IMG/VR virus record: IMGVR_UViG_3300042197_002708
Span: 1 to 24,564 of that record
Reading direction: 5' to 3' (one strand)
Length of the DNA: 24,564 nucleotides
From: a virus
Shown here: positions 1-12,524 of the stretch, one piece after another
How positions within the stretch are numbered: the stretch's first letter is position 1
How the letters are laid out: the number at the start of each line of letters is the position of its first letter
Program-made: the position numbers and the translations under genes
Notes under the pieces: model-generated
Told to the model about the DNA's origin: nothing
Seen by the model: the letters and a program-made list of their open reading frames with translations, nothing else
The model's database searches: none

Positions 1-172
1 TCCAATATGTTTGTGGATTAGTAACTCGCTGCGCTTTCAATCGCCAGAACATTCTAAACTTTCTGCCGGCTTTTGTTTTGTGTAGGGATTTTCCAAGGAT
101 TCCCTTAGCCTTTCTTTTTGGCAAGGTTTTCAAAAGATTATTTGAAACCCTTTCGTATGCTTTGATTATCAT
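1..172 (-). CDS. Partial small basic protein, unknown function (3' end outside window)
   Basis: An open frame starts at an ATG (172-170), one base after the stop codon of the gene at 174-374 (TAA T ATG), and runs 57 codons without a stop to the window edge. The visible part is strongly basic (LPKRKAKG, KTKAGRKFRMFWRLK), with lysine and arginine spread throughout and almost no acidic residues. That composition suits a nucleic-acid-binding or membrane-surface peptide, but I recognise no family. No strong Shine-Dalgarno site precedes it, so translational coupling to the upstream gene is likely. I infer that it is real from the open frame, the tight spacing to a same-strand gene and the lack of any competing plus-strand gene. 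Its C-terminus is unseen. Confidence 0.5.
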   Translation of the reverse strand, partial: MIIKAYERVSNNLLKTLPKRKAKGILGKSLHKTKAGRKFRMFWRLKAQRVTNPQTYW

Positions 173-173
173 A

Positions 174-374
174 TTAATAATCCCAGTATTCCCGAGCACG
201 TTCCCCGACAATCATAACGTAAAACGGAATATCACGGACTTGAGTGCTTCCAGTTGCAATCCATTCAGTTGCATCAATGCCACGATCGCAAGCCCACATG
301 GAAAAGTCGGGCCGGATGTCCACGGAAATGTTGGTACCGGTTGCAGGGATCAGGGAAATGGTGAGCTTGGTCAT
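174..374 (-). CDS. Small phage protein of unknown function (66 aa)
   Basis: A 66-residue ORF beginning MTKLTISLIPATGTN and ending AREYWDY. The ATG at 374 follows a leader that begins at an extended -10 promoter (404-412) and carries a weak purine-rich site (GAAGAA). The next minus-strand gene starts one base after this stop, so the two are probably co-transcribed. The sequence alternates beta-prone segments with WACDRG and YVMIVGERAR, with no membrane segment or known motif. Its promoter and leader closely resemble those of the gene at 948-1145, which supports a real gene, although the two proteins are not obviously similar beyond the MT start. Function unknown. Confidence 0.55.
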   Translation of the reverse strand: MTKLTISLIPATGTNISVDIRPDFSMWACDRGIDATEWIATGSTQVRDIPFYVMIVGERAREYWDY

Positions 375-403
375 TTCGGGTTCTTCGGTGAGTCAGCGAA
401 CGT

Positions 404-412
404 AGTATAGCA
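404..412 (-). promoter_or_regulatory. Extended -10 promoter for the minus-strand gene at 174-374
   Basis: On the minus strand the sequence reads TGC TATACT, an extended -10 (TGnTATAnT) element 29 bases before the ATG. The same nine bases occur before the genes at 546-749 and 948-1145. No convincing -35 box is visible, which is usual for extended -10 promoters. Confidence 0.6.
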
Positions 413-478
413 TAACACCGGGCAGCACCAAGCCCGAAATTTTAACCTTCTAGAGTGTAGGGTCTTTCACATCACCAT

Positions 479-508
479 TTGACACGGGCCAAAATTATGT
501 GATATAAT
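479..508 (+). promoter_or_regulatory. Strong sigma70-type promoter, module A
   Basis: A perfect -35 box (TTGACA, 479-484) and a perfect -10 box (TATAAT, 503-508) are separated by 18 bp, with TGTGA just before the -10. Transcription would start near 515, inside or just before an 11-bp-stem hairpin, and would run antisense to the minus-strand gene at 546-749. A second copy with the same spacing lies at 879-908. Confidence 0.75.
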
Positions 509-514
509 TTTGGC
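488..514. repeat. Inverted repeat over the -10 box of module A (possible operator)
   Basis: GCCAAAATTAT (488-498) is matched perfectly by its reverse complement at 504-514 around a 5-base centre GTGAT. The dyad covers the whole -10 box and predicted start region of the plus-strand promoter. This is where a repressor or other DNA-binding protein would act, but that role is inferred. Module B has the related dyad CAAAATTGT/ACAATTTTG. Confidence 0.6.
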
Positions 515-515
515 G

Positions 516-547
516 CCACAAAGCCCCCTTGGGCTTTGTGGTCTTTT
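516..547 (+). terminator. Hairpin with short T-run at the 5' end of the module A transcript
   Basis: CCACAAAGCCC (516-526), loop CCTT, then the exact complement (531-541), followed by TCTTTT on the plus strand. It resembles a rho-independent terminator for transcripts from the promoter at 479-508, which would leave an RNA of only about 33 bases. It lies 4 bases past the stop codon of the minus-strand gene at 546-749, so it may also end or protect that mRNA, but no T-run follows it on the minus strand. Confidence 0.55.
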
Positions 548-749
548 ACAAGCAGTGTTCCAACGTCATGAGAGTGTGGTAGTTGGCGTGAAAGAATGTC
601 TCCTCCGCCACCTTGCCAGCCACCTCGTCAAGCATCAGGTTTACTTCGTCATCCCAACGCATGGAAGCCGCTTCCAGTTCTTGCTCGAACTCTACAACTT
701 CAGAGTCTGTCATGCCAAGTGTATCGTAATACTGGTGGAAGGTGGTCAT
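546..749 (-). CDS. Small acidic phage protein of unknown function (67 aa)
   Basis: The protein starts MTTFHQYYDTLGMTDSEV and is rich in Glu and Asp (VVEFEQELEAAS, RWDDEVNLMLDEVAGKVAEE), with a predicted mostly helical middle and a His/Tyr-rich end (FHANYHTLMTLEHCL). I start it at the ATG at 749 because a GGAG Shine-Dalgarno sits 9 bases upstream and an extended -10 promoter lies at 783-791. The open frame continues upstream to 866, but that extension would contain the promoter and starts with an unsupported TTG. The stop overlaps the T-run of the module A hairpin. No family recognised; a small acidic protein could bind a host protein, but that is speculation. Confidence 0.6.
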   Translation of the reverse strand: MTTFHQYYDTLGMTDSEVVEFEQELEAASMRWDDEVNLMLDEVAGKVAEETFFHANYHTLMTLEHCL

Positions 750-782
750 TTTGCTTGCTCCGGTTTGTGATCCAATGAAGAC

Positions 783-791
783 AGTATAGCA
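783..791 (-). promoter_or_regulatory. Extended -10 promoter for the minus-strand gene at 546-749
   Basis: TGC TATACT on the minus strand, 33 bases upstream of the chosen ATG, identical to the elements at 404-412 and 1171-1179. No good -35 box is present. Confidence 0.55.
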
Positions 792-852
792 TATTCCAGT
801 GCGTTTTTGCAGAGGTCTCTCATTGTTTTTTCCTATCGAATGGACCAGGCTC

Positions 853-867
853 ATTGAAAAATTCAAT
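853..867. repeat. Small perfect inverted repeat upstream of promoter module B
   Basis: ATTGAA, centre AAA, TTCAAT: a perfect 6-bp-arm dyad ending 11 bases before the -35 box of the promoter at 879-908. It could be a regulator site. No equivalent is seen in front of module A, so the role is uncertain. Confidence 0.3.
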
Positions 868-878
868 CGCTCAGCCCG

Positions 879-908
879 TTGACACGGGCCGCAAAATTGT
901 GATACAAT
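879..908 (+). promoter_or_regulatory. Strong sigma70-type promoter, module B
   Basis: TTGACA (879-884) and TACAAT (903-908) separated by 18 bp, with TGTGA before the -10. The first 12 bases (TTGACACGGGCC) are identical to module A, and TTTTGGCGCC follows in both. The predicted start is near 915, just before another 11-bp-stem hairpin. Confidence 0.75.
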
Positions 909-912
909 TTTG
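892..912. repeat. Inverted repeat over the -10 box of module B (possible operator)
   Basis: CAAAATTGT (892-900), centre GAT, ACAATTTTG (904-912): perfect 9-bp arms covering the -10 box. It corresponds to the dyad at 488-514, with changes on both sides that keep the symmetry (TAT/ATA there, TGT/ACA here). This suggests the symmetry itself is selected. Confidence 0.6.
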
Positions 913-918
913 GCGCCT

Positions 919-948
919 ATAACCCCACAGATTGTGGGGTTATTATTT
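919..948 (+). terminator. Hairpin with T-rich tail at the 5' end of the module B transcript
   Basis: ATAACCCCACA (919-929), loop GAT, and the exact complement (933-943), followed by TATTT on the plus strand. As in module A, the stem is 11 bp and ends 4 bases from the stop codon of a minus-strand gene (948-1145). The stem sequence differs completely from module A. The predicted product is an RNA of about 34 bases. Confidence 0.5.
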
Positions 949-1145
949 CAGGACCACCTGTCCATCTGTTCTGCAGCCACATCATTCCAATGAAGCCAAT
1001 CCTTCTCAGTCTGTTTGACTTCTAGCCATGGAGCCGGCCGCCCACACCGATCGAGAATATCGAACTCGATGTCTTCGACAGTTAGATTCCAGCGGATTGT
1101 GCAAGGTATTCCTGCACACTTGCTTTGAAATTCACCGTTAGTCAT
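948..1145 (-). CDS. Small phage protein with an LDR-GRPAPWLE motif, unknown function (65 aa)
   Basis: MTNGEFQSKCAGIPCTIRWN, then a segment ending in FDILDRCGRPAPWLEVK and an acidic, Trp-rich tail (DWLHWNDVAAEQMDRWS). From memory, small phage proteins with IPC near the start and an E-F-x-(I/V)-L-D-R-x-G-R-P-A-P-W-L-E core recur in many unrelated phages as conserved proteins of unknown function; I could not check this by search. The ATG at 1145 has an AAGGA site upstream and an extended -10 promoter at 1171-1179. The promoter and leader resemble those of the gene at 174-374. Cys10 and Cys15 flank the IPC region. Function unknown. Confidence 0.7.
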   Translation of the reverse strand: MTNGEFQSKCAGIPCTIRWNLTVEDIEFDILDRCGRPAPWLEVKQTEKDWLHWNDVAAEQMDRWS

Positions 1146-1170
1146 TTTGGGTTCCTTGGTCAGTTAACGT

Positions 1171-1179
1171 AGTATAGCA
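1171..1179 (-). promoter_or_regulatory. Extended -10 promoter for the minus-strand gene at 948-1145
   Basis: TGC TATACT on the minus strand, 25 bases before the ATG. The sequence from the -10 through the start codon matches that at 374-412 apart from a few changes (shared blocks ACGTT, CTGAC and AACCC). It lies directly after the stop of the gene at 1186-1446. Confidence 0.6.
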
Positions 1180-1185
1180 TGATTT

Positions 1186-1446
1186 TTAGATCAAAACGTA
1201 CCGGCCTGCATCGTATTCGCGAACCACAGCCTTGCCGATCTCACGGTTTGTATAGCACAATTCAAAGCCCACCAACTTCACAGTTCCCGAGATCGACCGG
1301 GCCTCATCCCGAAAGTGTACGCTCACGTCTTCCAAGTACAGCCCCACACCCTCCTGGCTGTCATCCCACCAGATGTCCAGAAACTGTTGATTTCCACCAT
1401 AGCACCTGCCGGTGTTGAAGTGTATCATCTTGATCGACTTGTTCAT
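1186..1446 (-). CDS. Small phage protein of unknown function (86 aa)
   Basis: MNKSIKMIHFNTGRCYGGNQ, followed by FLDIWWDDSQEGVGLYLEDV, a central FRDEARSISGTVKLVG and a basic end (REYDAGRYVLI). The pattern suggests a small beta-rich domain; there is no signal peptide or membrane segment and I do not recognise the family. The ATG at 1446 has a good AAGGAAG Shine-Dalgarno, and a full promoter lies at 1473-1502. This is the first gene of the leftward cluster and sits across the control region from the late operon. A second in-frame ATG is six codons in but lacks an equally good site. Confidence 0.65.
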   Translation of the reverse strand: MNKSIKMIHFNTGRCYGGNQQFLDIWWDDSQEGVGLYLEDVSVHFRDEARSISGTVKLVGFELCYTNREIGKAVVREYDAGRYVLI

Positions 1447-1462
1447 CTTGCTTCCTTGCTGC

Positions 1463-1538
1463 CAATAGAACTATTGTACATCAGAACCAGCACAACGATC
1501 AATAGAATTTTTCTAATAGTGTTGACCACACAATAGAA
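1463..1538. repeat. Three direct copies of CAATAGAA in the divergent control region
   Basis: Exact copies at 1463-1470, 1500-1507 and 1531-1538, all in the same orientation. They lie downstream of, overlapping and upstream of the -35 of the leftward promoter at 1473-1502, and just before the rightward promoter at 1559-1588. They could be sites for a regulator controlling both directions, but 8-mers in AT-rich DNA can recur by chance. Confidence 0.35.
1473..1502 (-). promoter_or_regulatory. Leftward sigma70-type promoter for the small-gene cluster
   Basis: On the minus strand, -35 TTGATC (1502-1497), 18 bp, -10 TACAAT (1478-1473), with TG two bases before the -10. It lies 27 bases before the ATG of the gene at 1186-1446. 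Confidence 0.6.
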
Positions 1539-1558
1539 AAAATTCATAGCAAGACTGC

Positions 1559-1588
1559 TTGATACAGGCGGGAAGGTTGTGGTACAAT
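1559..1588 (+). promoter_or_regulatory. Rightward promoter for the late (structural) operon, module C
   Basis: TTGATA (1559-1564), 18 bp, TACAAT (1583-1588), with TTGTGG before the -10 and GGGGCGG after it. Spacer length and most positions match the promoters at 479-508 and 879-908 (TTGAYAC, GGC, TTGTGR, TACAAT, GGCG), so the three form a family. This copy lacks the long dyad and the start-site hairpin. Its leader to the small terminase gene would be about 150 bases. Confidence 0.6.
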
Positions 1589-1691
1589 AGGGGCGGTTAG
1601 TAGACTGCTAAAAAATGTTACCTACTGGCACCCACCACCAAGCGCAACTCCAGAATTTTTCTTCAAAACAAAAAGGTGCCAAAGAAAACAC

Positions 1692-1720
1692 TTGATTTTT
1701 AGCTCCCCAACTGTTATAAT
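1692..1720 (+). promoter_or_regulatory. Second rightward promoter, just before the small terminase gene
   Basis: TTGATT (1692-1697), 17 bp, perfect TATAAT (1715-1720). The predicted start near 1727 gives a short leader of about 22 bases to the ATG at 1749. The presence of this promoter is why I do not accept the upstream TTG at 1692 as a start codon. Confidence 0.65.
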
Positions 1721-1748
1721 TGACCCTAACACCACAAATCCCCCACAC

Positions 1749-2234
1749 ATGAACACACTAACTACCCCACCCACTTCACCAGCAGAAGTCCTAGAGGTTT
1801 CACCTGAGGCCCTAACAATCTGCAATGCCTATCTCAGCCACCAAACCATCGAAGGTGCTGCAAGGTCTTTAGACTTAGAGCCTTCATACGTAGCCCAGGT
1901 ACTATGTATGCCCAGTTCAAAATCTTACATTTCAACAGTATTTCAAGACTGGGGGTTCAACAATCGTTTTAAGTTAAGGTCGGCCTTGGATGCAGTAATC
2001 TCCCGTAAGTTTCAGGAGTTAGACGAGGCAGGTGTGGGATCCTCAAAAGACATCGCAGAATTACTAGAGCTTTCACACAAAATGAGCATAAAGGAGTTGG
2101 AACTTCAAATACTCCTAGAAAAGGCCAGAACTAAGAATGTTCCCTCAAAAGTCACAAATGTGCAAGTCAATGATCACGGCGGCTCAAACTACAACAAACT
2201 TTTAGAAAGCTTACTAAAAAATGTTGCAAATTAG
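1749..2234 (+). CDS. terS: Terminase small subunit (putative)
   Basis: The terminase small subunit binds the packaging start site on phage DNA and hands it to the large subunit. This 161-residue protein lies directly before an unmistakable large terminase and overlaps it by 14 bases. A likely helix-turn-helix occupies about residues 24-50 (YLSHQTIEGAARSLDLEPSYVAQVL). The later segment, with GVGSSKDIAELLELSHKMSI and a following helix with many Glu and Leu, matches the oligomerisation helices common in small terminases. I chose the ATG at 1749; the frame is open back to a TTG at 1692, but that TTG is the -35 box of a promoter. No Shine-Dalgarno precedes the ATG (the leader is CCCCCACAC), which is odd beside the other late genes. 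Identification rests on position, size and helix pattern. Confidence 0.75.
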   Translation: MNTLTTPPTSPAEVLEVSPEALTICNAYLSHQTIEGAARSLDLEPSYVAQVLCMPSSKSYISTVFQDWGFNNRFKLRSALDAVISRKFQELDEAGVGSSKDIAELLELSHKMSIKELELQILLEKARTKNVPSKVTNVQVNDHGGSNYNKLLESLLKNVAN

Positions 2235-3498
2235 TCGAAGTGACATTGTCTCGGACCGTCTCCAGGACTTTAACCCCAAAAAGATTTTATTACCAATCCA
2301 GCCTTACTTGGAACTCTTACAAGAAAATGGTAGTTCAGTATGGTCGCAGATCAATCCTCCACAAATCGCACTTATCAATGCTCTTAATAGTCCGTCATAC
2401 CGTTTTGTAACTGCAGCGTATAGCCGCCGGTTAGGCAAGACCTATATAGCAAATGTGATTGGTCAATTGGTATTTTTAGTTCCGGATAGCCACGTACTCA
2501 TCATGAGTCCCAACTACAACCTGAGCAACATAAGTTGGGACCTACAGCACCGTTTTGTAAAAAGTTTTGATTTGGAAGTCGTCAAAGACAATAGCAAAGA
2601 CAAGGTTTTGGAACTCAGCAACAAAAGCACTATCCGAATGGGCTCTGTTGGTACCGTAGATTCTAGCGTTGGTAGAAGTTACGATTTAATTATTTTTGAC
2701 GAAGCAGCCTTACACCCCGGAGGTGAATCCGCCTTTGAGGTTGCCCTGCGCCCTACTCTAGACAAGATCTCTTCTAAATGCGTTTTTATTTCAACCCCGC
2801 GCGGTAAGTCGAACTGGTTTTCAAAGTTTTACGACCGCGGGTTTGATGACAACTTTCCGCAATGGTGTTCACTCCACGCTACCTGGGAAAGCAATCCTAG
2901 AGTTTCGGAATCGGACATCCTAGAAGCTCGCAAGACCATGAGTGCAGCAGTGTTTGCACAAGAGTATTTGGCATCCTTTAACACCTTTGAGGGTCAGATC
3001 TACAAGTTTGATGTGTCCAATGTGGTAGAACAGGCTCCAGCAGGAGAAAGCTTTGCTGGTTTAGACCCTGGCTTTAGAGACTATACAGCGTTTTGTGTGG
3101 TAGTTTACGATGGACATTGTTACTATATAGTAGACGAGTACTTAGAACGTGAAAAACCCACTTCATACCACGCTGACAAAATAAAAGCTCTTTTAGAACG
3201 TCACCACTGCGAAACAGTCTTTATTGATTCAGCTGCAGCTCAAGTAGCAGCCGACTTAGCCTACAATCACGACATTTCAACCACTCGTGCACGTAAAGAC
3301 GTGTCTGCAGGGATTGGATTTGTTCAGAATCTAGTAGAGAACGACAAGCTAAAAGTGTTATCGCACTGTACCCACACTTTAACAATGCTAGACCAGTACC
3401 GTTGGGATGAACGTAAAACAGGAGAAAAACCTGTGCACGATCAATACTCCCACATGGCAGACGCTCTTCGTTACGCACTTTATACTTATACAACATGA
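2221..3498 (+). CDS. terL: Terminase large subunit (packaging ATPase and nuclease)
   Basis: The DNA-packaging motor at the portal vertex: it hydrolyses ATP to pump DNA into the prohead and cuts the concatemer. At 425 residues it has the usual length. The N-terminal ATPase has the terminase-type Walker A SRRLGKT (residues 68-74) and Walker B LIIFDEAA with Asp160 and Glu161, followed by the coupling motif STPRG. The C-terminal RNase H-like nuclease has its three expected acidic residues: Asp282 (GLDPG), Asp336 (FIDSAA) and Asp414 (HMADALRY). All catalytic residues are intact. It starts within the end of the small subunit gene and its stop overlaps the start of the GIY-YIG gene (ATGA), so translation is probably coupled on both sides. 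Confidence 0.95.
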   Translation: MLQISRSDIVSDRLQDFNPKKILLPIQPYLELLQENGSSVWSQINPPQIALINALNSPSYRFVTAAYSRRLGKTYIANVIGQLVFLVPDSHVLIMSPNYNLSNISWDLQHRFVKSFDLEVVKDNSKDKVLELSNKSTIRMGSVGTVDSSVGRSYDLIIFDEAALHPGGESAFEVALRPTLDKISSKCVFISTPRGKSNWFSKFYDRGFDDNFPQWCSLHATWESNPRVSESDILEARKTMSAAVFAQEYLASFNTFEGQIYKFDVSNVVEQAPAGESFAGLDPGFRDYTAFCVVVYDGHCYYIVDEYLEREKPTSYHADKIKALLERHHCETVFIDSAAAQVAADLAYNHDISTTRARKDVSAGIGFVQNLVENDKLKVLSHCTHTLTMLDQYRWDERKTGEKPVHDQYSHMADALRYALYTYTT

Positions 3499-4067
3499 AC
3501 TCAGGAATTTATAAGTTCTATTTCCCAGATAGCAGTTTTTACATTGGTCGATCACACGACTTTGAAAAGCGTTGGAAACAACACCGGGACTCAATGGTTA
3601 AAAACAAGCACACGCCAAAAATACAAGAAAAGTACAAGACCTTTGGACTTCCCACTTTTGAGGTGGTTACTTGTTGCCATCCAGACCATTGCGATATTGT
3701 AGAAACACTCTTTATTACAAAGCTGTGGAAAGATCATTCACACCGAATGTTGAATGGTTCTATACCAACAGAATTGGGTTCAGACTATTGGGACCGTTTA
3801 GTAGAGGTAGCAGAATATCTCCCTTTAGGTACTCTAGAAATAATGGAAAAGCTCAAGGCCTTGGAGTACAAGTTGGATCATGACAGCTTAGCTAAACAGT
3901 TGGCAGAGCGAGAAGCAGAGGTTCAAGACCTTTGGGAGGTGTTTAGTAGCTATGTAGACGAAGCAGAGAAAAACCGGTTGTTGGAACAAAGGGTGTTAGA
4001 ATTAGAGAATGGGTTGAAAAATGAGAGTTTTTGGAAGAAGATTAAGTTTTTATGGGGTACTACATAA
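3495..4067 (+). CDS. GIY-YIG endonuclease with C-terminal coiled coil
   Basis: A GIY-YIG nuclease of 190 residues. GIY is at residues 4-6, YIG at 16-18, the catalytic-type arginine at Arg26 (EKRWKQH), the metal-binding glutamate at Glu70 (DIVETLF) and the family asparagine at Asn86 (MLNG). All key positions are present, so it should be active. Residues about 120-178 form a charged coiled coil (LKALEYKLDHDSLAKQLAEREAE and following) that may mediate dimerisation or DNA contact. The gene starts in a 4-base ATGA overlap with the large terminase and has no Shine-Dalgarno of its own. Phage GIY-YIG proteins are mostly homing endonucleases; a role in packaging cannot be excluded here. No intron or inserted-gene boundary is visible. 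Confidence 0.85.
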   Translation: MNSGIYKFYFPDSSFYIGRSHDFEKRWKQHRDSMVKNKHTPKIQEKYKTFGLPTFEVVTCCHPDHCDIVETLFITKLWKDHSHRMLNGSIPTELGSDYWDRLVEVAEYLPLGTLEIMEKLKALEYKLDHDSLAKQLAEREAEVQDLWEVFSSYVDEAEKNRLLEQRVLELENGLKNESFWKKIKFLWGTT

Positions 4068-4073
4068 TTTTGC

Positions 4074-4102
4074 TTGAAAAAATTTTGCTTTTGCTTTATA
4101 AT
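4074..4102 (+). promoter_or_regulatory. Promoter in front of the HNH-type gene
   Basis: TTGAAA (4074-4079), 17 bp of T-rich DNA, perfect TATAAT (4097-4102). The predicted start near 4109 leaves almost no leader before the TTG start codons of the next gene. It also would transcribe portal and capsid genes downstream. Confidence 0.6.
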
Positions 4103-4116
4103 AAGGGAAATTGAAG

Positions 4117-4578
4117 TTGGCTAAAAATACCTCTAAAAGAATTCCTGTAAAATGGATTCGCGACAAAGCAAAGTCAGCTTACGAAAAACAGGAACACTGC
4201 TGGATCTGCAACACTGAAAAGGACTTAGAACTTCACCACCTAGGAAGTATTACACTTCTTTTAGAAAATTGGGTAGTCAAAACCGGTGTAGACATTAGCA
4301 CTGACGAAGCAGTGGTTGCCATGAGGGACGAGTTTATTGAAGCTCACTACAAAGAGATCTACAAAGACGTTTATACACTTTGCAATCGCCATCATGTTGC
4401 TTTGCACTCTGTATTTGGAAAAGCTCCGGCCTTGAACACAGTAGACCGTCAAAGATCCTGGATAGAAATTCAAAAAACCAAAGCCTTGAATAAAGAAGAT
4501 AGTGTTAAAAAGGTTTTTGTTGTAGGGAACTTTTCTCCCTTTGTTTTAGATACAAGCTTTAAGCGGTTCTGGGAGTAA
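4117..4578 (+). CDS. HNH-like endonuclease (putative)
   Basis: A protein of about 153 residues with a zinc-type HNH layout. Counting from the alternative TTG at 4111, these are Cys30-x2-Cys33 (CWIC), a Leu-His-His at 41-43 (ELHHLGS) and a second metal site at Cys91, His94, His95 and His99 (CNRHHVALHSVFG). His42/43 would be the catalytic base of a beta-beta-alpha-metal fold. No ATG is available. Of two TTG codons I prefer 4117, because AAGGG (4103-4107) is then 9 bases upstream; 4111 would leave only 3. In HK97 an HNH protein (gp74) beside the packaging genes supports terminase cutting, so this gene, between terminase and portal, could do likewise; it could equally be a homing-type gene. It has its own promoter. 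Confidence 0.75.
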   Translation: MAKNTSKRIPVKWIRDKAKSAYEKQEHCWICNTEKDLELHHLGSITLLLENWVVKTGVDISTDEAVVAMRDEFIEAHYKEIYKDVYTLCNRHHVALHSVFGKAPALNTVDRQRSWIEIQKTKALNKEDSVKKVFVVGNFSPFVLDTSFKRFWE

Positions 4579-4581
4579 AAG

Positions 4582-5754
4582 ATGTTTGAAAGTTTTAAAA
4601 ACTGGATGTTTAAAAGCAATCCAGCACAAGTTGTAATCAGCAGAGAAGAAGGCATCACAATTGACACCTTTTCTCCTATCAATTACCGTTTAGCATTTGA
4701 CAAGTTGGAAAGTGTAAACCGCGGAACGTCCATGATTGTGAGCGGTTGCAGTTCTTTGGACTACGATATCAAAGATCAGAAACTAGAAGGTGTTGTAAAA
4801 GGGGTTCGAAAGACTACTTTAGATCGTTTACTAAACTTTCAGCCCAACCCACATCAAAGTAGTTGTGAGTTTCGTAAAAACATCTTTACAGATTATGTTT
4901 TAGAAGGCAACGTGTTTTTGTACTGGGATGGAGCACACCTATACCACCTTCCAGCATCATCTGTTGTAATAGAAACAGATACCAAAACTTTTGTAAAAGC
5001 CTACAACTATAACTCAGAAGTAGACTTTAAACCAACAGAAATCATTCACTTCAAAGACTTGAGTTCAAAGAGTATTTACCGCGGCGACAGCAGACTACAG
5101 AGTGCAGATCGCAACATAAAGATTCTTTATAAAATGCAGAGTTTTCAAGAAGGTTTCTTTGAAAACGGTGCAGTTATGGGTCTGGTTTTAACGTCTGACA
5201 ACACACTTTCTCAAATCGCAAAAGACAGAACAATCTCAAACTGGATTCAAAAGTACAATCCACGCAATGGGGCACGCAAGCCCATGATTTTGGATTCAGG
5301 ATTGAAGCCAGTTAATATTTCACAAGAAACATTTAAAGACATGGACTTTGATAACTCTATCAAAACCCATGACCACAAGATTTTAAAAGCGTTAGGAGTT
5401 CCTCCTGTGTTGTTAGACGGAGGAAACAATGCCAACATTAGTCCTAACTTGAGATTATTTTACCTAGAAACAATAATGCCTATTGTGCAAAGCTATGTTT
5501 CAGGTCTAGAAAGATTTTTTGGATACGATGTTGCGCCTATCACCAGCACCGTGTCCGCCCTGCAGCCAGAGCTTAAAGATGTGGCTGCCTACTACACAAC
5601 ACTAGTAAACGGAGGAGTTTTAACTCCTAACGAGGCTAGAGTTGAACTTCGCTACGAGAAAAAGCCTAATGCAGACGAAGTGCGAATTCCTGCCAATATC
5701 GCAGGATCAGCAAGCAATCCGAGTCAGGGTGGCAGACCAAGCGAAAACCAATAA
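4582..5754 (+). CDS. Portal protein (HK97 type)
   Basis: The portal forms a twelve-subunit ring at one capsid vertex through which DNA enters and leaves, and on which the neck is built. This 390-residue protein has the usual size for the HK97-like group and typical features: STLxRLLNFQPNPHQS-like start of the core (TLDRLLNFQPNPHQSS), DYVLEGNVFLYWDGA, LPASSVVIE, EIIHFKDLSS...YRGDSRLQSA, FFENGA, and the C-terminal ILKALGVPPVLLDGG with FYLETIMPIVQSYVSGLERF. The C-terminus is polar and glycine-rich. A GGGAG Shine-Dalgarno overlaps the stop codon of the upstream gene. It is followed after 10 bases by the protease-capsid gene. Confidence 0.93.
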   Translation: MFESFKNWMFKSNPAQVVISREEGITIDTFSPINYRLAFDKLESVNRGTSMIVSGCSSLDYDIKDQKLEGVVKGVRKTTLDRLLNFQPNPHQSSCEFRKNIFTDYVLEGNVFLYWDGAHLYHLPASSVVIETDTKTFVKAYNYNSEVDFKPTEIIHFKDLSSKSIYRGDSRLQSADRNIKILYKMQSFQEGFFENGAVMGLVLTSDNTLSQIAKDRTISNWIQKYNPRNGARKPMILDSGLKPVNISQETFKDMDFDNSIKTHDHKILKALGVPPVLLDGGNNANISPNLRLFYLETIMPIVQSYVSGLERFFGYDVAPITSTVSALQPELKDVAAYYTTLVNGGVLTPNEARVELRYEKKPNADEVRIPANIAGSASNPSQGGRPSENQ

Positions 5755-5764
5755 AAGGAAAAAG

Positions 5765-7675
5765 ATGGATAAAAATAAAGTACTACGATTGAATAGTGCT
5801 TTTTCCATTAAGAGTGATGCCTCTAGCGATAGTTCTGTTTATGTAGAAGGGTATGCAAGTACTGTAGACGTAGACAGGCAAGGCGACGTTGTCCCTAGTA
5901 GCGTGTGGGAAAAAGGCATCCAAAACTACCTTAGAAATCCAGTTGTTCTAGCTTATCATGACCATAGCCAGCCTATTGGTCGTGTAACAGAACACAAAAC
6001 GGATTCAAAGGGGTTGTGGATTAAAGCCCGTATTAGTTCTGCTGCAAAGCAGTTTGGTTTAATCAAAGACGGTATACTTTCCGCTTTTAGTATTGGGTTC
6101 CGTGTCTTAGACGCAGAATACAATTCAGCAGCTGAAGTATTTGTTATCAAAGAGCTAGAGCTGGTTGAAATTTCCGTTGTTAGTGTACCAGCTAATCAAA
6201 ATAGTTTATTTGAACTATCCAAGGCGTTTGAATCGCCTGAAGAGTATAAACTTTTTAAGGAAAGCTTCACAAAACCCTCAGGTAATAGCCTAGAGCAAAA
6301 AGAAGCAGACACAAGTAAGAAAAAGGAATGGAACATGAATCCAGAAGATATCAAGCAAATGGTTGCAGATGCAGCTAAAGCCGCAGCCGAAGCTCTAGTT
6401 CAAGAGCAAAAAGCCCTTCAAGTCAAAGCACAAAAAGAAGCTGAAGAAAAAGCACTTTTTGAAGCAAAAGTTAAAGAAGCCGTTACAGCCCAGATCCAAA
6501 CAATTGGTACTGGCAGCGAACAGCTCATCAAAGACGTAGAAAAGCGCCTACAAGACGATCATCAAAAGGCCCTAGACGGTCTACATGCTGTGATCAAGGA
6601 AAAGGCTGCTGAACTAGAAGCCATCCAAAAGAGCAAGATGACTTTTGGTGACAAGGACAGCAAAGAAGCTGTAAGTTACCAAGAAAAAGAAAATGCCGTA
6701 ATGCTAAGCAAGGTTCTTGGCCGTAAGGGCTTAGACACCACAAAGTATGGTAAGCGTATTGTAGAAAAGGCTGGTGCTCACGTTCCAGGTGCAGAACCTT
6801 GGGAACTAGAAGTAAGCCTACGCATGGAAGACGAAGTACGTCGTCGCCTAGTAATGGCTCCTCTAATGAGAAGCATTGCAATGCAGACCAACGTAATGAA
6901 GATTCCTGTTAACCCAGAAGCTGGCCTAGCCACATGGGTACAGAATTCTGAGTTTGGTACTTCTGCTTCTGCTGGTGCAGCTCAGACTCATGCTCTAACA
7001 GAAATCACACTAAGCGCCTATAAGGTTGCTACTCGTGAGTATCTAGCTTACGAAGAAGAAGAAGATTCATTACTAGTTCTTCTACCAGTCATTCGTGACG
7101 CAATGATCCGTCGTGTTGCTCGTGCAGTAGACAAGGCCATGATCAACGGAGCCGGTGCAGGTGCTGATCCTGTTAAGGGTGTTGCAATGTACGACGCTAC
7201 TTCAGCTGTAACAGTTGATTCAAGCGCCGCAGTAACCATTGCTAACCTACGTGCTCTACGTAAGGATCTTGGTGCTTGGGGTCTAGACCCTGCCGAGCTA
7301 GTTTATGTTGTTAACACAGAAGTGTACTACAACCTACTAGACGACACCAACTTCCAGACCGTTGACAAGGTTGGTCCTCAGGCTACCTTACTAACTGGTC
7401 AGATCGGTGTTATTGCCAACACTCCAGTAGTTGTAAGCGGCGAGTTCCCTTCAATCGCTGAAGGTGCTGCAACAGCCTCTACCAACATCGCAGCCTTCTG
7501 CTTTGCCCCAGCTAACTTCCTAGCCGGCAACCAGCGTGGTCTACGTGTTGACACCGACGATCTCGTAGAAACACAGCGCCGTGTATTAGTGGCTTCACTA
7601 CGCACAGGCCTAACACAGCTAACCACAAATCTTGGTCCAGCTGTTTCTACCCTACGCTACGTCAACGCAGCTTAA
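5765..7675 (+). CDS. Fused prohead protease, scaffold and major capsid protein (HK97 fold)
   Basis: A single 636-residue protein with three parts. Residues about 20-170 are an HK97-type (U35) prohead protease: VEGYASTVDVDRQGDVV, YHDHSQPIG with His65, SAFSIGFR with Ser109, and LVEISVVSVPAN with Glu135 as the likely third catalytic residue. Residues about 190-310 are an Ala/Glu/Lys-rich coiled coil, matching the scaffolding (delta) domain. From about 320 on is the capsid shell protein (WVQNSEFGTS, INGAGAGADPVKG and the C-terminal DDLVETQRRVLVASLRTG). I start at the ATG at 5765, with an AAAGGA site; the frame is open back to 5642 inside the portal gene. In most phages protease and capsid are separate genes. 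An in-frame start at 6335 would make protease-free product. A double hairpin follows the stop. Confidence 0.93.
   Translation: MDKNKVLRLNSAFSIKSDASSDSSVYVEGYASTVDVDRQGDVVPSSVWEKGIQNYLRNPVVLAYHDHSQPIGRVTEHKTDSKGLWIKARISSAAKQFGLIKDGILSAFSIGFRVLDAEYNSAAEVFVIKELELVEISVVSVPANQNSLFELSKAFESPEEYKLFKESFTKPSGNSLEQKEADTSKKKEWNMNPEDIKQMVADAAKAAAEALVQEQKALQVKAQKEAEEKALFEAKVKEAVTAQIQTIGTGSEQLIKDVEKRLQDDHQKALDGLHAVIKEKAAELEAIQKSKMTFGDKDSKEAVSYQEKENAVMLSKVLGRKGLDTTKYGKRIVEKAGAHVPGAEPWELEVSLRMEDEVRRRLVMAPLMRSIAMQTNVMKIPVNPEAGLATWVQNSEFGTSASAGAAQTHALTEITLSAYKVATREYLAYEEEEDSLLVLLPVIRDAMIRRVARAVDKAMINGAGAGADPVKGVAMYDATSAVTVDSSAAVTIANLRALRKDLGAWGLDPAELVYVVNTEVYYNLLDDTNFQTVDKVGPQATLLTGQIGVIANTPVVVSGEFPSIAEGAATASTNIAAFCFAPANFLAGNQRGLRVDTDDLVETQRRVLVASLRTGLTQLTTNLGPAVSTLRYVNAA
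6323..6337 (+). promoter_or_regulatory. Internal ribosome binding site and in-frame ATG at the scaffold-capsid part
   Basis: AAGGAA (6323-6328) lies 6 bases before an in-frame ATG at 6335-6337 (codon 191, start of MNPEDIKQMV). It sits exactly at the join between the protease domain and the scaffold coiled coil. Starting here would give a 446-residue scaffold-capsid protein without protease. The site is seen in the sequence; its use is inferred. Confidence 0.5.
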
Positions 7676-7680
7676 TAAAC

Positions 7681-7705
7681 CGGGGAGGAAATCCTCCCCG
7701 TTTTT
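7681..7705 (+). terminator. Rho-independent terminator after the capsid gene
   Basis: CGGGGAGGA (7681-7689), loop AA, TCCTCCCCG (7692-7700), then TTTTT. It begins 5 bases after the capsid stop codon (TAA, 7673-7675). A GC-rich stem with a U-run is a standard intrinsic terminator, probably partial, so that capsid mRNA is made in excess over downstream genes. Confidence 0.8.
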
Positions 7706-7733
7706 ATAATGGTTTTAGGAACCATTATAAAAA
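7701..7733 (+). repeat. Second perfect hairpin sharing the terminator's T-run
   Basis: TTTTTATAATGGTT (7701-7714), loop TTAGG, and its exact reverse complement (7720-7733). The U-tract of the terminator is the 5' arm of this 14-bp stem, so an RNA that escapes termination can fold the U-tract into a second structure. It ends 15 bases before the next start codon. Confidence 0.7.
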
Positions 7734-7748
7734 CGACAAGGAGTAATA

Positions 7749-8315
7749 ATGGCAGACTTAGTCACGCTTCAAGAATACAAAAACTATGCGGGAATCACAA
7801 ACCCCAATCAAGATACACAGATTAATTCCATTATTCCCAAGGTTTCAGATTTTGTAAAAACATACTGCAACCGTGCTTTTTTAGAGTATGTAAGCGACCC
7901 TAAAACTGAAGTGTTTGCAGGGGGATTTCGCTATCTACTCAAAGAGTTTCCAGTGGTTCAGGTGCTCAGTTTAGAGTACAGCTCAGACTACGGCAACACT
8001 TATGTAGAGCTGGAAGAGTATGTTTCCTGGGTTTTTGATAATACTACCGGCGAGGTCATCCCCATCGGTAATCTCACAGAATTTGATAAGAAACCCAACA
8101 GCTACAAAGTCACTTACTTTGCAGGGTTTGAAACTCTGCCAGGCGACTTAAAGCTTGCTGTTTTAGATTTGGTTACTTACTACTTACGCAACGATTCAGC
8201 AATTCACAGCACAAAAGCTCCGGGCTCTAATTCAGTGCAGATTGAGTATATTTCTACTACAAACCTGCCCTCACACATCAAGCGTGTTTTAGATTTGTAT
8301 GTAAACTACTATTGA
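7749..8315 (+). CDS. Head-tail connector (adaptor) protein, gp6-like
   Basis: A 188-residue protein of the head-tail connector family that docks under the portal. The start, LVTLQEYKNYAGITNPNQDTQINSIIPKVSDFVKTYCNRAF, is the typical first half of the HK97 gp6/SPP1 gp15-like alpha-helical adaptor, followed by a beta-rich middle (EFPVVQVLSLEYSSDYGNTY, YKVTYFAGFETLPGDLKLAVLDLVTYYL). Position after the capsid gene fits. A strong AAGGAG Shine-Dalgarno lies 6 bases before the ATG. The stop is one base before the next ATG. Confidence 0.85.
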   Translation: MADLVTLQEYKNYAGITNPNQDTQINSIIPKVSDFVKTYCNRAFLEYVSDPKTEVFAGGFRYLLKEFPVVQVLSLEYSSDYGNTYVELEEYVSWVFDNTTGEVIPIGNLTEFDKKPNSYKVTYFAGFETLPGDLKLAVLDLVTYYLRNDSAIHSTKAPGSNSVQIEYISTTNLPSHIKRVLDLYVNYY

Positions 8316-8316
8316 T

Positions 8317-9972
8317 ATGAGTATCCCAGAGTTTAGTGAGACCCTAAAAAAACGGGTTCAAGACAATTATTTACAAAAAGTAAAGCTTGGAAGTCTAGGA
8401 GAAGCCTCAATAAAAGACCTTTCAAATTCTATTTCAGACAGTGATAAATTTAGAGCGGCTTTTGAGGCAGGTACTTCGGGACATGATTCAATTATAACTG
8501 TTGCAGGTCTTAGAGATCTAGGGCAAAAGCTTGCACAAAGTGCACCTAAAGGTGCTTTAAAAATCATGGCTCAAGACCTATTTAATAACTTAGATTTTAA
8601 TCACTTTATTAATTGGTTGGAAACAAAAAGACTTCCTTTAGCAGCAGGAAAAGGCAGCACTACACAGGTAAAAAGACTTACGGACTCCTCTGGAGAAGAG
8701 TACCCAGGTTTAAAACTAGAAAATATTACTCAAAGTAATGCAAAAAAATACTTTGAACAGTACATAGATTTAATACTAACAACACAACGCTATCCAAAAC
8801 AGGTAAGAACAATACAGAGGTTAAAAAAACACATTTCTGAAAATATAGAAGCAGGACACTTAGCGGGTATTTTTAGTTTAAAGTTCAAGCTTGCTTTTGG
8901 TGCTACAATAAATCAGGATGAGTTGGCATCAGCAAAAACTTACAGAGATTTTTCCGTAAAAATAGATGGAGAAAACAAAGAATTTGAAAAGATGCTGACT
9001 GTAGTAATAAGATCTCTTTTAGACGCCGACTATTTGACTAGTAACGTAGTAGATAAAGAAGATCTATTTTTAACTGCAGTAAAGTACGCTCTAGGAGAAA
9101 ATCCAAGACTACAAACAGAACTTCAGTTTGGAAAAGATAACGGAGGTTCTGGTAGTTTGTTAGGAAGTGCAGGAAAGAGTATAAAAAAGCTAATAACAAA
9201 CTTAGCAACTACTCTTCCACAAAACAGAGATCAAAAAATATACTTAAAAGAGTTCATACAGTCTCTAACAGCCCTTCAAAAATCTGTAGAAGAAAGAGCA
9301 AAACAGCTGCAGAATCTTGGTCCTAAATACGAAAAACTTGCAGAAAGTATATTAGAAGACAATAAAACACTGCAGTCTTTTATAACCAGTCCTGGATCTC
9401 CTTCTATAGTACAAGGTATAGAACAAACTATAGCAAGTATTATTAAAAATGGTAAAATTCCAAAAGAAATAAAAACTTCTGTATCTTTAAAAAAGTCCAC
9501 AAAGAAAAAAGATAGTGTATCTTCTAACTTAAATAAGATAATAAAAGATACAGTAAAAAAGGTTAATAGTGCTAAACAAACACTAAAAAAACAAACAGAA
9601 GCCGTACGGATAAAATATCCAAAAATCGAAGCGAAACCAACACCACAAAGTCCCGCCAACCTAGTAGCATTACTAAACGCCAGTTTACGAGACGCCATTG
9701 TAAACAACATGGGAACAGGCAACAGAACTGATGTACTCAACTACAGAACCGGTCGATTTGCAGACAGCGTTGAAGTAAACAGAGTTTCGACCAGCCGTCA
9801 GGGAATGATAACTGCTTTTTATACTTACATGAAAAACCCGTATGCAACCTTTTCGAGAGGTGGGCGTCAGGAGTTTCCTAGGAGTAGAGACCCTAAGACC
9901 TTAATAAGCAAAAGCATCCGTGATGTCGCGCAAACCCTAGTAACCAACCAATTGAGGACTATAAATGTCTAA
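8317..9972 (+). CDS. Neck/head-closure protein with a large N-terminal extension (putative)
   Basis: Residues about 448-551 look like a neck or tail-completion protein (HK97 gp10-like position): VLNYRTGRFADSVEV, ITAFYTYMKNPYATFS and SRDPKTLISKSIRDVA. The preceding 440 residues are unusual for this slot: helical, Lys-rich, containing GHLAGIFSLKFKLAFGATIN, a coiled-coil-like region around residues 310-345 and a Lys-rich linker (SLKKSTKKKDSV). That part is AT-rich and uses mostly AGA arginine codons; around 9600 base and codon use returns to that of the neighbours. I infer a domain fusion. Start is one base after the previous stop with no Shine-Dalgarno, so it is probably coupled. It overlaps the next gene by 8 bases. 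Function of the N-terminal part unknown. Confidence 0.7.
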   Translation: MSIPEFSETLKKRVQDNYLQKVKLGSLGEASIKDLSNSISDSDKFRAAFEAGTSGHDSIITVAGLRDLGQKLAQSAPKGALKIMAQDLFNNLDFNHFINWLETKRLPLAAGKGSTTQVKRLTDSSGEEYPGLKLENITQSNAKKYFEQYIDLILTTQRYPKQVRTIQRLKKHISENIEAGHLAGIFSLKFKLAFGATINQDELASAKTYRDFSVKIDGENKEFEKMLTVVIRSLLDADYLTSNVVDKEDLFLTAVKYALGENPRLQTELQFGKDNGGSGSLLGSAGKSIKKLITNLATTLPQNRDQKIYLKEFIQSLTALQKSVEERAKQLQNLGPKYEKLAESILEDNKTLQSFITSPGSPSIVQGIEQTIASIIKNGKIPKEIKTSVSLKKSTKKKDSVSSNLNKIIKDTVKKVNSAKQTLKKQTEAVRIKYPKIEAKPTPQSPANLVALLNASLRDAIVNNMGTGNRTDVLNYRTGRFADSVEVNRVSTSRQGMITAFYTYMKNPYATFSRGGRQEFPRSRDPKTLISKSIRDVAQTLVTNQLRTINV

Positions 9973-10405
9973 AAGAAGTAGTATTGTAAAAGCCCTCAGT
10001 ACAAATATTGCTAACGAGTTAGACGGAGTAAGTCCCTACAAAACAAACTTGTACAGCAACTGTTTTCCTTACTTAAAGTTCTGGGATGAAGTCTCAAACT
10101 TTCCGTCTGTTTACATAACACCAGGCTCAGAAACTCGTGAGTATTTACCGGGAGACTTTGTTTGGGGCTATCTTAGCCTCAGCTTGAAATTGTACTGCAA
10201 AGGTGATAATAGCCAGCAAGAGTTAGAAGACTTGTTGGAAGATGTAGAGCGCTGTATTGATCTTAACCGTGTGTTGGTTTATGATACAACACAAAATTAC
10301 TCAACAACAGAGATTTTAATCACCAGTATTACAACTGATGAAGGTCTGTTGTCTCCTTATGCAGTAGGAGAAATTAATCTGCAAGTAAGATACGAAGTAA
10401 AATAA
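9965..10405 (+). CDS. Tail terminator / tail completion protein (putative)
   Basis: A 146-residue protein between the neck gene and the tail tube gene, the place where siphophages encode the protein (lambda gpU-like) that caps the finished tail tube and joins it to the head. The sequence fits a small alpha-beta fold: helical start (SIVKALSTNIANELDG), FPSVYITPGSETREYLPGD, strands WGYLSLSLKLYCKG, an acidic helix ELEDLLEDVERCIDL, and strand-rich end GEINLQVRYEVK. A GAGGA site precedes the ATG, which lies inside the end of the neck gene. Assignment rests on position, size and fold pattern. Confidence 0.75.
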   Translation: MSKRSSIVKALSTNIANELDGVSPYKTNLYSNCFPYLKFWDEVSNFPSVYITPGSETREYLPGDFVWGYLSLSLKLYCKGDNSQQELEDLLEDVERCIDLNRVLVYDTTQNYSTTEILITSITTDEGLLSPYAVGEINLQVRYEVK

Positions 10406-10453
10406 AGTCTTTTAATAAACAGATAAAGATCTTGTAAAAAAGAAGACTTTTTT
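10404..10453 (+). terminator. Weak hairpin with T-run before the tail tube gene
   Basis: AAAGTCTT (10404-10411) pairs with AAGACTTT (10443-10450) across a 31-base loop and is followed by TTT. The loop is long and the stem AT-rich, so it may be a weak terminator or a leader structure of the tail tube mRNA. Confidence 0.3.
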
Positions 10454-10473
10454 CGCCAAAAAAGGAAAAAATT

Positions 10474-11625
10474 ATGGCATTAAATCTATTGCGTAATACC
10501 CGAGTATTCTTTACCACAAATGTTAGCGCCACAACAGGTGTGGTAGCGGGTACTGGGTTTACTAATACAAACACCTTTGAGATCCAGGTTCTAGACGGAT
10601 TCTCTTTTACTCAGAATACAACTTCTGAAACAATTACCCTAAATGAAGCAGGTGCAGCACCTAGCCGTGGTCAAAGATCGTTCAATACTGCTCTTGACCC
10701 TGTAGAGTTCACAATGAGCACCTACATTCGTCCAAAGTTTATTGATGCAGAAACAGATCAAATTGTGGCCGAAGAGCGCTGGTTGTGGAACGCTTTTGCT
10801 GGGACTGGAAGCATAGGGGCAGCAGGTGCAGGCTGGACAACTGGATCAGCCAGTTCAGCAGTAGCTTTTGGCAATAGTAACGCTCACCAGTTACAAAAGT
10901 TTGGTATGATACTAGTAGTAGATGGTGCTATTTATATCATCGATAACTGCGCAATGGACCAAGCAACTATCGATTTTGGTATTGATGCAATTGCTACTAT
11001 TGGATGGACCGGTAGAGGCACTACTTTACGTAATATCGAAAACATCACAGTTGGAACAAATGGTGATGGTGATACTACCTTTACTGGTACAGGTCTTTCC
11101 GGCGTAGCAAAGAAAAAAGATACTACAGCAGGGTATTTAGCCAATAAGTTAAGTACAGTAACCGTTTCAGCAGGTATTGGTGGTGGGGGCACTTCTTATT
11201 CAGTACCAGTTACTGGCGGAAGTGTTACTTTTGCAAACAATCTAACCTACTTAACTCCAGCTAACCTTGGTGTTGTTAACGTACCTATTACCTACTTTAC
11301 AGGAACGCGTGCTGTAAGTGGAAACTTAACAGCTTATCTACGTACAGGTGGTTCAAACGATACAGGTGATTTGTTAAAGGATCTACTAACTGGATCTACT
11401 ACAAATATTGAACCAGGCTTCTCTATTACTGTTGCTATCGGTGGATCCACAAACAGCAATCGTGTAGAAATTGCAATGCCTGCAGCCGTACTGCAAATTC
11501 CTACTGTAAATGCAGAACAGGTTGTTTCAACAACAATCAACTTTACAGCTCAAGGTAAGGCAGCCGGCGCTGCATACGACATCGAAGCTGCAAACGAAGC
11601 TTCTGTTACATACTACGCTGCTTAA
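10474..11625 (+). CDS. Major tail tube protein
   Basis: A 383-residue protein expected to stack in hexameric rings to form the tail tube. Seen: FSFTQNTTSETITLNEAGAAPSRGQ followed by NTALDPVEFTMSTYIRP, a pattern common in siphovirus tail tube proteins, an LLVVDGAIYIIDNC-like strand pair (MILVVDGAIYIIDNCA), GWTGRG, and a C-terminal VSTTINFTAQGK. The middle (about residues 185-290) is Gly/Thr/Ser-rich with NNLTYLTPANLGVVN, likely an outward loop or added domain. Gene position after the tail terminator and before the frameshifted chaperones is canonical. AAAGGA Shine-Dalgarno; a GC-rich hairpin follows the stop, fitting a highly expressed gene. Confidence 0.85.
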   Translation: MALNLLRNTRVFFTTNVSATTGVVAGTGFTNTNTFEIQVLDGFSFTQNTTSETITLNEAGAAPSRGQRSFNTALDPVEFTMSTYIRPKFIDAETDQIVAEERWLWNAFAGTGSIGAAGAGWTTGSASSAVAFGNSNAHQLQKFGMILVVDGAIYIIDNCAMDQATIDFGIDAIATIGWTGRGTTLRNIENITVGTNGDGDTTFTGTGLSGVAKKKDTTAGYLANKLSTVTVSAGIGGGGTSYSVPVTGGSVTFANNLTYLTPANLGVVNVPITYFTGTRAVSGNLTAYLRTGGSNDTGDLLKDLLTGSTTNIEPGFSITVAIGGSTNSNRVEIAMPAAVLQIPTVNAEQVVSTTINFTAQGKAAGAAYDIEAANEASVTYYAA

Positions 11626-11630
11626 TTTTT

Positions 11631-11656
11631 AAGGGGAGGAACACCCTCCCCTTGTT
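11631..11656 (+). terminator. Hairpin after the tail tube gene
   Basis: AAGGGGAGG (11631-11639), loop AACA, CCTCCCCTT (11644-11652), then GTTT. The stem is strong but the T-run short, so it is probably a leaky terminator or a 3'-end stabilising structure. It resembles the stem after the capsid gene (GGGGAGG/CCTCCCC in both). Confidence 0.65.
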
Positions 11657-11674
11657 TAATACAAAAGGAAAAAA

Positions 11675-12088
11675 ATGTCAGGAAAAGTTTCTCTTAAGTC
11701 TCTTTTAGTACCTTCAAAGAACATTGAAGTCGAATACCCAGGAATGCCTGGTTTCGTTGTAAGCGTGGCCTTCTTAAGCCGCGAAACACTTCAAAACATT
11801 CGCAAAAAGAGCACAAAAACAAGCTTTAAAAATCGTCAGCCCGTTGAAGAGTTAAATGACGACTTATTCTTAGAGCTTTATGTAAAAGCGTCGGTCTTGG
11901 GCTGGAAAGGCTTAAAAATTGCTTATCTAGAACAGCTTGCACCTATTGATGTAAGTGGTCTAGACAAAGAAGATGAACTAGAGTTTTCAGATGAAAATGC
12001 TTTGTACCTTATGAAGAGCTCATCAAACTTTGACGCCTTTATTTCAGAACAGGTTACAGACCTGGGAAACTTTTCGAAGAACAAATAA
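11675..12088 (+). CDS. Tail assembly chaperone (lambda gpG-like, unshifted product)
   Basis: A 137-residue protein in the place of lambda gpG, between tail tube and tape measure. Such proteins coat the tape measure and recruit tube subunits; they are absent from the finished virion. The body is a helical/beta mix with a Lys-rich start (VSLKSLLVPSKNIEVEYPGM, FLSRETLQNIRKKSTKTSF) and an acidic later part (DKEDELEFSDENALYLMKSS). Near the end, codons CTG GGA AAC place the slippery heptamer GGGAAAC in the correct phase for -1 slippage. AAAGGA Shine-Dalgarno before the ATG. Confidence 0.85.
   Translation: MSGKVSLKSLLVPSKNIEVEYPGMPGFVVSVAFLSRETLQNIRKKSTKTSFKNRQPVEELNDDLFLELYVKASVLGWKGLKIAYLEQLAPIDVSGLDKEDELEFSDENALYLMKSSSNFDAFISEQVTDLGNFSKNK
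12064..12070 (+). promoter_or_regulatory. Programmed -1 frameshift site GGGAAAC
   Basis: The heptamer GGGAAAC is read G GGA AAC in the chaperone frame, the X XXY YYZ arrangement needed for -1 slippage; lambda uses GGGAAAG at the equivalent place. After slippage reading continues CTT TTC GAA in the -1 frame, which is open for 131 codons. The unshifted stop comes only 15 bases later (12086-12088). A 5-bp inverted repeat abuts the site upstream (12050-12064), and no clear downstream structure is visible. Confidence 0.85.
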
Positions 12089-12495: not shown

Positions 12496-12524
12496 TTGAC
12501 AATTTTTAGCCCTTGTGCTATAAT
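12496..12524 (+). promoter_or_regulatory. Consensus promoter for tape measure and fibre genes
   Basis: Perfect TTGACA (12496-12501), 17 bp, perfect TATAAT (12519-12524), with TG at -15/-14 region (TGTGC before the -10). The predicted start near 12531 gives a leader of about 48 bases containing the AGGAG site of the tape measure gene. It lies just after a terminator, so the distal tail genes form their own transcription unit. Confidence 0.85.

Follow-up and report, generated by a model that had tools for sequence, protein, structure and literature searches.

Repeated promoter-dyad-hairpin cassettes in T5-like phages, candidate antisense promoters facing pre-early-like genes

Known promoter-hairpin systems and the two modules of the window

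Cassettes in which a promoter directly precedes a stem-loop are reportedly found in T4-type phages such as RB49 and phi1, where Arbiol et al. in 2010 are said to have described them as PeSL (promoter-early stem-loop). In these cassettes a sigma70-like promoter is followed by a stem-loop, and many copies per genome lie among small accessory genes; the stem-loop terminates effectively, the promoter drives the next gene and recombination between copies shuffles genes. The example that we located in RB49, at 20558, reads TTGACT-17-TATAAT and then GGGGAGTGTAAATACTCCCC-GTTTTA. Another relevant system is the OOP RNA of phage lambda, a short RNA, ending at a true terminator, that is complementary to the 3'-terminal part of an early gene transcribed toward it. 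As for structure within the promoter itself, Horwitz and Loeb reportedly presented a cruciform-regulated synthetic E. coli promoter in 1988, and the virion RNA polymerase of phage N4 uses hairpin promoters. In T5, genes of every class are transcribed by sigma70 RNA polymerase, and how the phage moves from one class to the next has been described as unknown (PMC7472727).

The DNA analyzed here, referred to as the window, is an isolated virus fragment of 24.6 kb (24,564 nucleotides), and its TerS, TerL, portal, protease-capsid fusion and neck genes are arranged as they are in Vibrio phage D254. The window TerL is 48-49% identical to the TerL of phages of the Vibrio phage D254 type, and T5 TerL matches that of the relatives of the window at 45-48%. 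On the strength of this gene order and these TerL identities the window phage is assigned, by sequence, as an uncultured T5-like siphovirus. A search of 50,697 phage records with window positions 1-12000 found no close relative at the DNA level. The features to which we refer below are the following:

399 to 412, minus strand, also at 778-791 and 1166-1179: leftward extended -10 promoter-like element TGCTATACTACGTT (TGCTATACT)
479 to 508, plus strand: module 1 sigma70-type promoter, with TTGACA at 479-484, an 18-bp spacer and the extended -10 TGATATAAT (TATAAT at 503-508)
488 to 514, unstranded: module 1 dyad over the -10, GCCAAAATTAT-GTGAT-ATAATTTTGGC, with arms that covary in relatives
512 to 517, unstranded: module 1 GGCGCC, discriminator or predicted start region and invariant anchor
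516 to 541, unstranded: module 1 hairpin, perfect over 11 bp, with a 4-base loop and a weakly T-rich tail
546 to 749, minus strand: small ORF convergent to module 1, with no family match
879 to 908, plus strand: module 2 sigma70-type promoter, with TTGACA at 879-884, an 18-bp spacer and TACAAT at 903-908
892 to 912, unstranded: module 2 dyad over the -10, CAAAATTGT-GAT-ACAATTTTG, with arms at 892-900/904-912
912 to 917, unstranded: module 2 GGCGCC
919 to 943, unstranded: module 2 hairpin, perfect over 11 bp, with a 3-base loop and a sequence unrelated to that of the module 1 hairpin
948 to 1145, minus strand: small ORF convergent to module 2, Pfam PF20788 (YuA_Gp49-like)
2221 to 3498, plus strand: T5-like TerL, the marker for the phage group, which also sets the orientation of relatives

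The original prediction had described two composites made of TTGACA, an 18-bp spacer, TATAAT or TACAAT, a dyad and an 11-bp hairpin, and both were recovered at these positions, each with its hairpin ending exactly 4 bases short of the stop codon of a minus-strand ORF. This 4-base distance holds for the two window copies and not for relatives (median 38, peak 0-10). The short T-run that had been attributed to both hairpins is weak in each; the module 1 hairpin counts as terminator-like and the module 2 hairpin does not. The promoter scan scored module 1 at 12/12 and module 2 at 11/12. In DNA folding, the z-scores were -6.1 (hairpin) and -1.6 (dyad) for module 1, and -5.3 (hairpin) and -3.4 (dyad) for module 2. 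The dyad core of module 1 consists of 8 A/T pairs (491-498/504-511) lengthened by GCC/GGC, and module 2 differs from it by a paired change of A:T to G:C (TACAAT/ATTGT vs TATAAT/ATTAT). The cassette pattern matched the window twice and its reversed control gave no match. The two modules are not chance occurrences, because control matches were zero in the window and in 18 related contigs. Rfam matches at 400-1100 of the window were at chance level only, and none reached the gathering threshold in the window or in four related loci.

The leftward genes of the window appear to have extended -10 promoter-like elements of their own. The element at 399-412 precedes ORF 174-374, and the three copies precede three small genes (4 matches with at most 2 mismatches vs 0.74 expected); no obvious -35 accompanies these elements in the window. 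Elsewhere in the window, a GIY-YIG-type gene (PF01541, 3495-4067) and an HNH-like ORF (4111-4578, assigned by eye and with no Pfam match) both lie between TerL and portal, and the pair at this junction resembles a homing-endonuclease insertion. At 5642-7675 a single 677-aa ORF combines the prohead protease (PF04586) with the major capsid protein (PF05065), which are separate in T5 and D254. A 12/12 consensus sigma70-type promoter (TTGACA-17-TATAAT, 12496-12524) is located directly ahead of a large 2514-aa ORF that is probably the tape measure gene. A further element at 1559-1596 (TTGATA-18-TACAAT then GGGGCGG) carries no dyad, is directed toward terS and is possibly the packaging operon promoter.

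In general layout the modules resemble PeSL cassettes, with a sigma70-type promoter directly before a stem-loop, repeated in many copies among small accessory genes; they differ from the RB49 example, which has no -10 dyad, in that their -10 lies within a covarying dyad. Lambda OOP resembles the predicted module RNAs in being antisense to a convergent early gene at its 3' end; unlike them, OOP concerns one gene and has a true terminator, with no array and no -10 dyad. As in the Horwitz-Loeb and N4 promoters, the promoter core contains an inverted repeat that could extrude and so control initiation; the T5-like cassettes differ in being natural, multi-copy and sigma70-type with a -35, and extrusion is here a proposal only. 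The phages themselves are like T5 in TerL and gene order, and T5 has annotated palindromes between its pre-early genes. No promoter with a -10 dyad, GGCGCC and a hairpin was found in the 24 kb of T5 and the 22 kb of Vibrio phage D254 that were scanned.

Distribution, anatomy and covariation of the cassette

Relatives were gathered by a TerL scan and by motif scans of IMG/VR contigs, giving about 200 loci. These are partly overlapping contigs in which identical cores were counted once; the pattern-based sampling is biased toward near-consensus copies and the ORFs were called mechanically. The loci contained 479 distinct promoter-like matches, 335 of them with a dyad 7 bp or longer. Among the 18 related contigs, 15 carry 1-17 copies, always on a single strand per contig. 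In the three whole contigs mapped (3/3) the copies are confined to a block of about 10 kb left of or beside terS, which consists of small ORFs mostly with no family match. One contig of 97 kb has 27 of its 42 long palindromes within the first 10 kb. The cassette is restricted to T5-like phages: each of the 20 long contigs that were selected solely on the motif has a gene for a T5-like TerL, a scan of 84,980 species genomes of bacteria and archaea gave no match to the motif, and among 50,697 phage records nothing convincing appeared, the cultured phages giving only weak partial matches at E values of 2 or more.

The consensus order is TTGAC, an 18-bp spacer, TGnTAnAAT within self-complementary arms, GGCGCC and a perfect hairpin, and the spacer measures 18 nt in 330 of the 335 dyad modules of related contigs. 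A search anchored on GGCGCC plus a perfect dyad, with no promoter required, returned 326 cases, and in 225 of them the right arm contained TAnAAT. TTGAC was present in 224 of these 225, at a spacing of 18 bp in 222 and of 17 bp in 2. Among the remaining cases, the examples listed were mostly identical modules seen from the opposite side, because GGCGCC is its own complement. This association of TTGAC with the dyads at an almost constant distance excludes a bidirectional terminator with fortuitous promoters, which the original prediction had considered. Judging from its sequence, the promoter is very probably real. Downstream of it a perfect stem of at least 8 bp was found in 82% of modules vs 1.8% of shuffles.

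The idea that structure is kept despite sequence change, and that related phages would retain both the dyad and the hairpin, was upheld. When right arms were tabulated against left-arm motifs the table was almost purely diagonal, the right arms TTT, ATT, TTC, TTTT, TT, T and C each occurring together with a left arm complementary to it. At the third -10 position the base changes in step with the one it pairs with (T:A in 176/187, A:T in 43/43 and C:G in 7/7). Dyad loops are 0, 1, 3, 5 and more bases long and the centre of symmetry is also variable. The arms vary as complementary sets, unlike the fixed half-site and spacing of one dimeric operator. At orthologous positions, hairpins are swapped for unrelated ones. 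In one ortholog pair the identity spans the hairpin and about 40 bases beyond it, whereas the promoter half differs by paired changes and matches that of a paralogous module 5 kb away, an apparent conversion. Stems share a 6-mer in 29% of comparisons within a contig vs 5.2% between contigs, and in 25 of 133 pairs (4.1 expected) one loop is the reverse complement of the other. Nearest-neighbour counts mix replaced, non-homologous hairpins and were left out of the covariation statistics.

A wobble-pair test, meant to tell whether selection acts on DNA or on one of the RNA strands, found the stems nearly all Watson-Crick; terminator hairpins of the same phages were equally so under a comparable finder, and the test thus failed its control. 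Near-neighbour comparisons gave no clear strand preference in the hairpin. Two further candidate features were rejected. A palindrome around the -35 (GGGGC-TTGACA-GCCCC) occurs in some copies only (16% vs 13% in cross-matched controls), and for a leftward promoter inside the dyad no matching minus-strand -35 was seen on inspection.

The loci also contain a second promoter class with no dyad, CACTG-TATAAT-n-GGCGC (L202:118-155, L103:748-790, L193:3702-3740 and others), and TTTTGCACTGGCGCA repeats lie close to these promoters. Exact parS (putative ParB-binding) palindromes TGTTTCACGTGAAACA are present at L004:944-959, L103:748-763, L066:2744-2759, L079:6375-6390 and other places, and Fur-box-like module hairpins (AAATGAGAATGATTCTCATTT, AAATGCGAATGATTCGCATTT) at L136:1583-4450, L004:2605-2680 and L024:926-1000.

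Orientation, termination and position of the modules

The promoter had been predicted to yield RNA antisense to the 3' part of a convergent gene, and its placement agrees with this in most modules of the relatives: in 291 of the 334 dyad modules (87%) it points at the stop codon of an ORF that converges on the module. The neighbouring ORF on the left likewise runs leftward in 250 of 305 cases. A co-directional ORF follows the module in 43/334, and these could be ordinary promoters. The hairpin is intrinsic terminator-like in 29/334 dyad modules (9%), and the 8 bases after the stem contain a mean of 2.8 T. Since the hairpin is seldom a terminator, read-through into the convergent gene is expected. 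A terminator facing the module RNA lies within 160 nt in 64/334, so that some module RNAs may be short.

These counts also bear on the comparison with PeSL. In the RB49 example, promoter and genes point the same way and a T-run is present, whereas the T5-like cassettes are mostly convergent and a T-run is uncommon in them. The T5-like cassette is anatomically PeSL-like, yet we do not class it as PeSL because tests for termination and co-directionality found few terminator-like hairpins and a large majority of convergent modules.

Homologues of T5 dmp, a pre-early gene located within the T5 pre-early terminal repeat, were found in 99 loci. The nearest module was on the opposite strand in 99/99, at a median distance of 270 bp. 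A homologue of T5 A1 was found in the block in one contig only, and of T5 A2 in none, so the pre-early assignment of the block rests on dmp and on position. Relative to the late genes, the module block occupies the position of the T5 terminal repeat.

Antisense interference and alternative readings

We tentatively propose that the modules are selected antisense sigma70-type promoter cassettes whose activity interferes with accessory genes that are leftward and pre-early-like. In each, a strong promoter of the host sigma70 type (TTGACA, 18 bp, TGnTATAAT, GGCGCC discriminator) just past the 3' end of the leftward gene would aim back into that gene. RNA polymerase would start at about 515 or about 915, placing a stable hairpin at, or a few bases after, the RNA 5' end. 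The module RNA would usually continue antisense into the convergent gene, which would be lowered or shut off by antisense pairing and polymerase collision, and the self-complementary -10 region would control promoter opening. We infer in this way that the cassette is transcribed, that it represses and that the dyad plays a role. The covariation with variable loops suggests self-pairing of the dyad DNA. Self-pairing of DNA (or RNA) is more likely than a fixed operator of one dimeric protein, because the arms vary in sequence and loop length yet remain complementary. An antisense role alone leaves the retention of the hairpin and of the -10 dyad unexplained. In a further version, which we hold to be very unlikely, the modules would be topological switches whose -10 dyad and hairpin extrude as cruciforms, the array forming an early-to-late switch of the pre-early-like block. 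Cruciforms would extrude behind the leftward polymerase and keep the antisense promoter off during gene activity; once leftward transcription ends, the dyad would close, the promoter would fire and the gene would be locked off.

Other explanations can be weighed against antisense interference. The promoter and hairpin might serve, in PeSL-like manner, as short homology for swapping accessory genes and hairpins from one phage to another by recombination, with antisense transcription being secondary. The small genes of the block, mostly with no family matches, agree with this, as do the unrelated hairpins at orthologous positions, the ortholog pair that has the same hairpin and a promoter half as in the paralog, and the more frequent sharing of stem 6-mers within contigs; we nevertheless think it unlikely, and homology alone would not preserve the -10, the 18-bp spacer, the single orientation and the covarying arms. 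It is rather unlikely that host DNA-binding proteins (ParB, Fur, others) use the downstream palindromes as operators or decoys and thereby regulate the promoter. Among all loci, 38 of 48 parS-type sites GTTTCAYRTGAAAC lie at most 200 nt downstream of a module, a region that makes up 3% of bases, and 14 Fur-box-like stems ATGnGAATnATTCnCAT were found in the downstream windows, while scrambled palindromes gave 0 in both cases. However, there are about a hundred different half-stem 6-mers, most of which match no site known to us, and the two hairpins of the window match none of the motifs tried. Dyad loops of such variable length are also ill-suited to one rigid dimer, and LexA, CRP, FNR and Zur sites were not found in the 200-nt downstream windows.

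A role of the hairpins in the 3'-UTR of leftward mRNAs, where they would protect or process the 3' end, strikes us as decidedly unlikely. The minus-strand RNA does fold into both window hairpins (z -5.3) and hairpins are often a few bases from the stop codon, but such a role gives no reason for a TTGACA and a TGnTATAAT to stand a constant distance apart on the opposite strand, and minus-strand wobble pairs are not in excess, although that test is weak. The original prediction had the promoter and a terminator produce a discrete stem-loop RNA of about 33 bases. Module 1, which scores as terminator-like, would fit; module 2 does not belong to the small terminator-like group, and this outcome now appears highly improbable. 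Finally, the block palindromes could be functionless by-products perfected by template switching during replication, which predicts loops in both orientations (PMC8794818), as seen in the excess of reverse-complement loops. The crowding of long palindromes at the start of the 97-kb contig fits as well. Such a process accounts for perfect pairing and leaves the conserved promoter, spacing, orientation and position unaccounted for, and we regard it as extremely improbable.

If antisense interference is the correct reading, the cassettes may be off-switches for small genes adjoining the packaging genes of T5 relatives. They are a good natural example of a promoter core whose structure is preserved by covariation, and of hairpins exchanged as a whole yet kept in place. 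The question addressed in T5 is how gene classes are switched, and pre-early genes shut off, despite the use of host sigma70 RNA polymerase throughout (PMC7472727). An array of strong antisense promoters facing small genes of the pre-early-like block, among them dmp homologues, would be a concrete and testable candidate for class switching of the T5 type.
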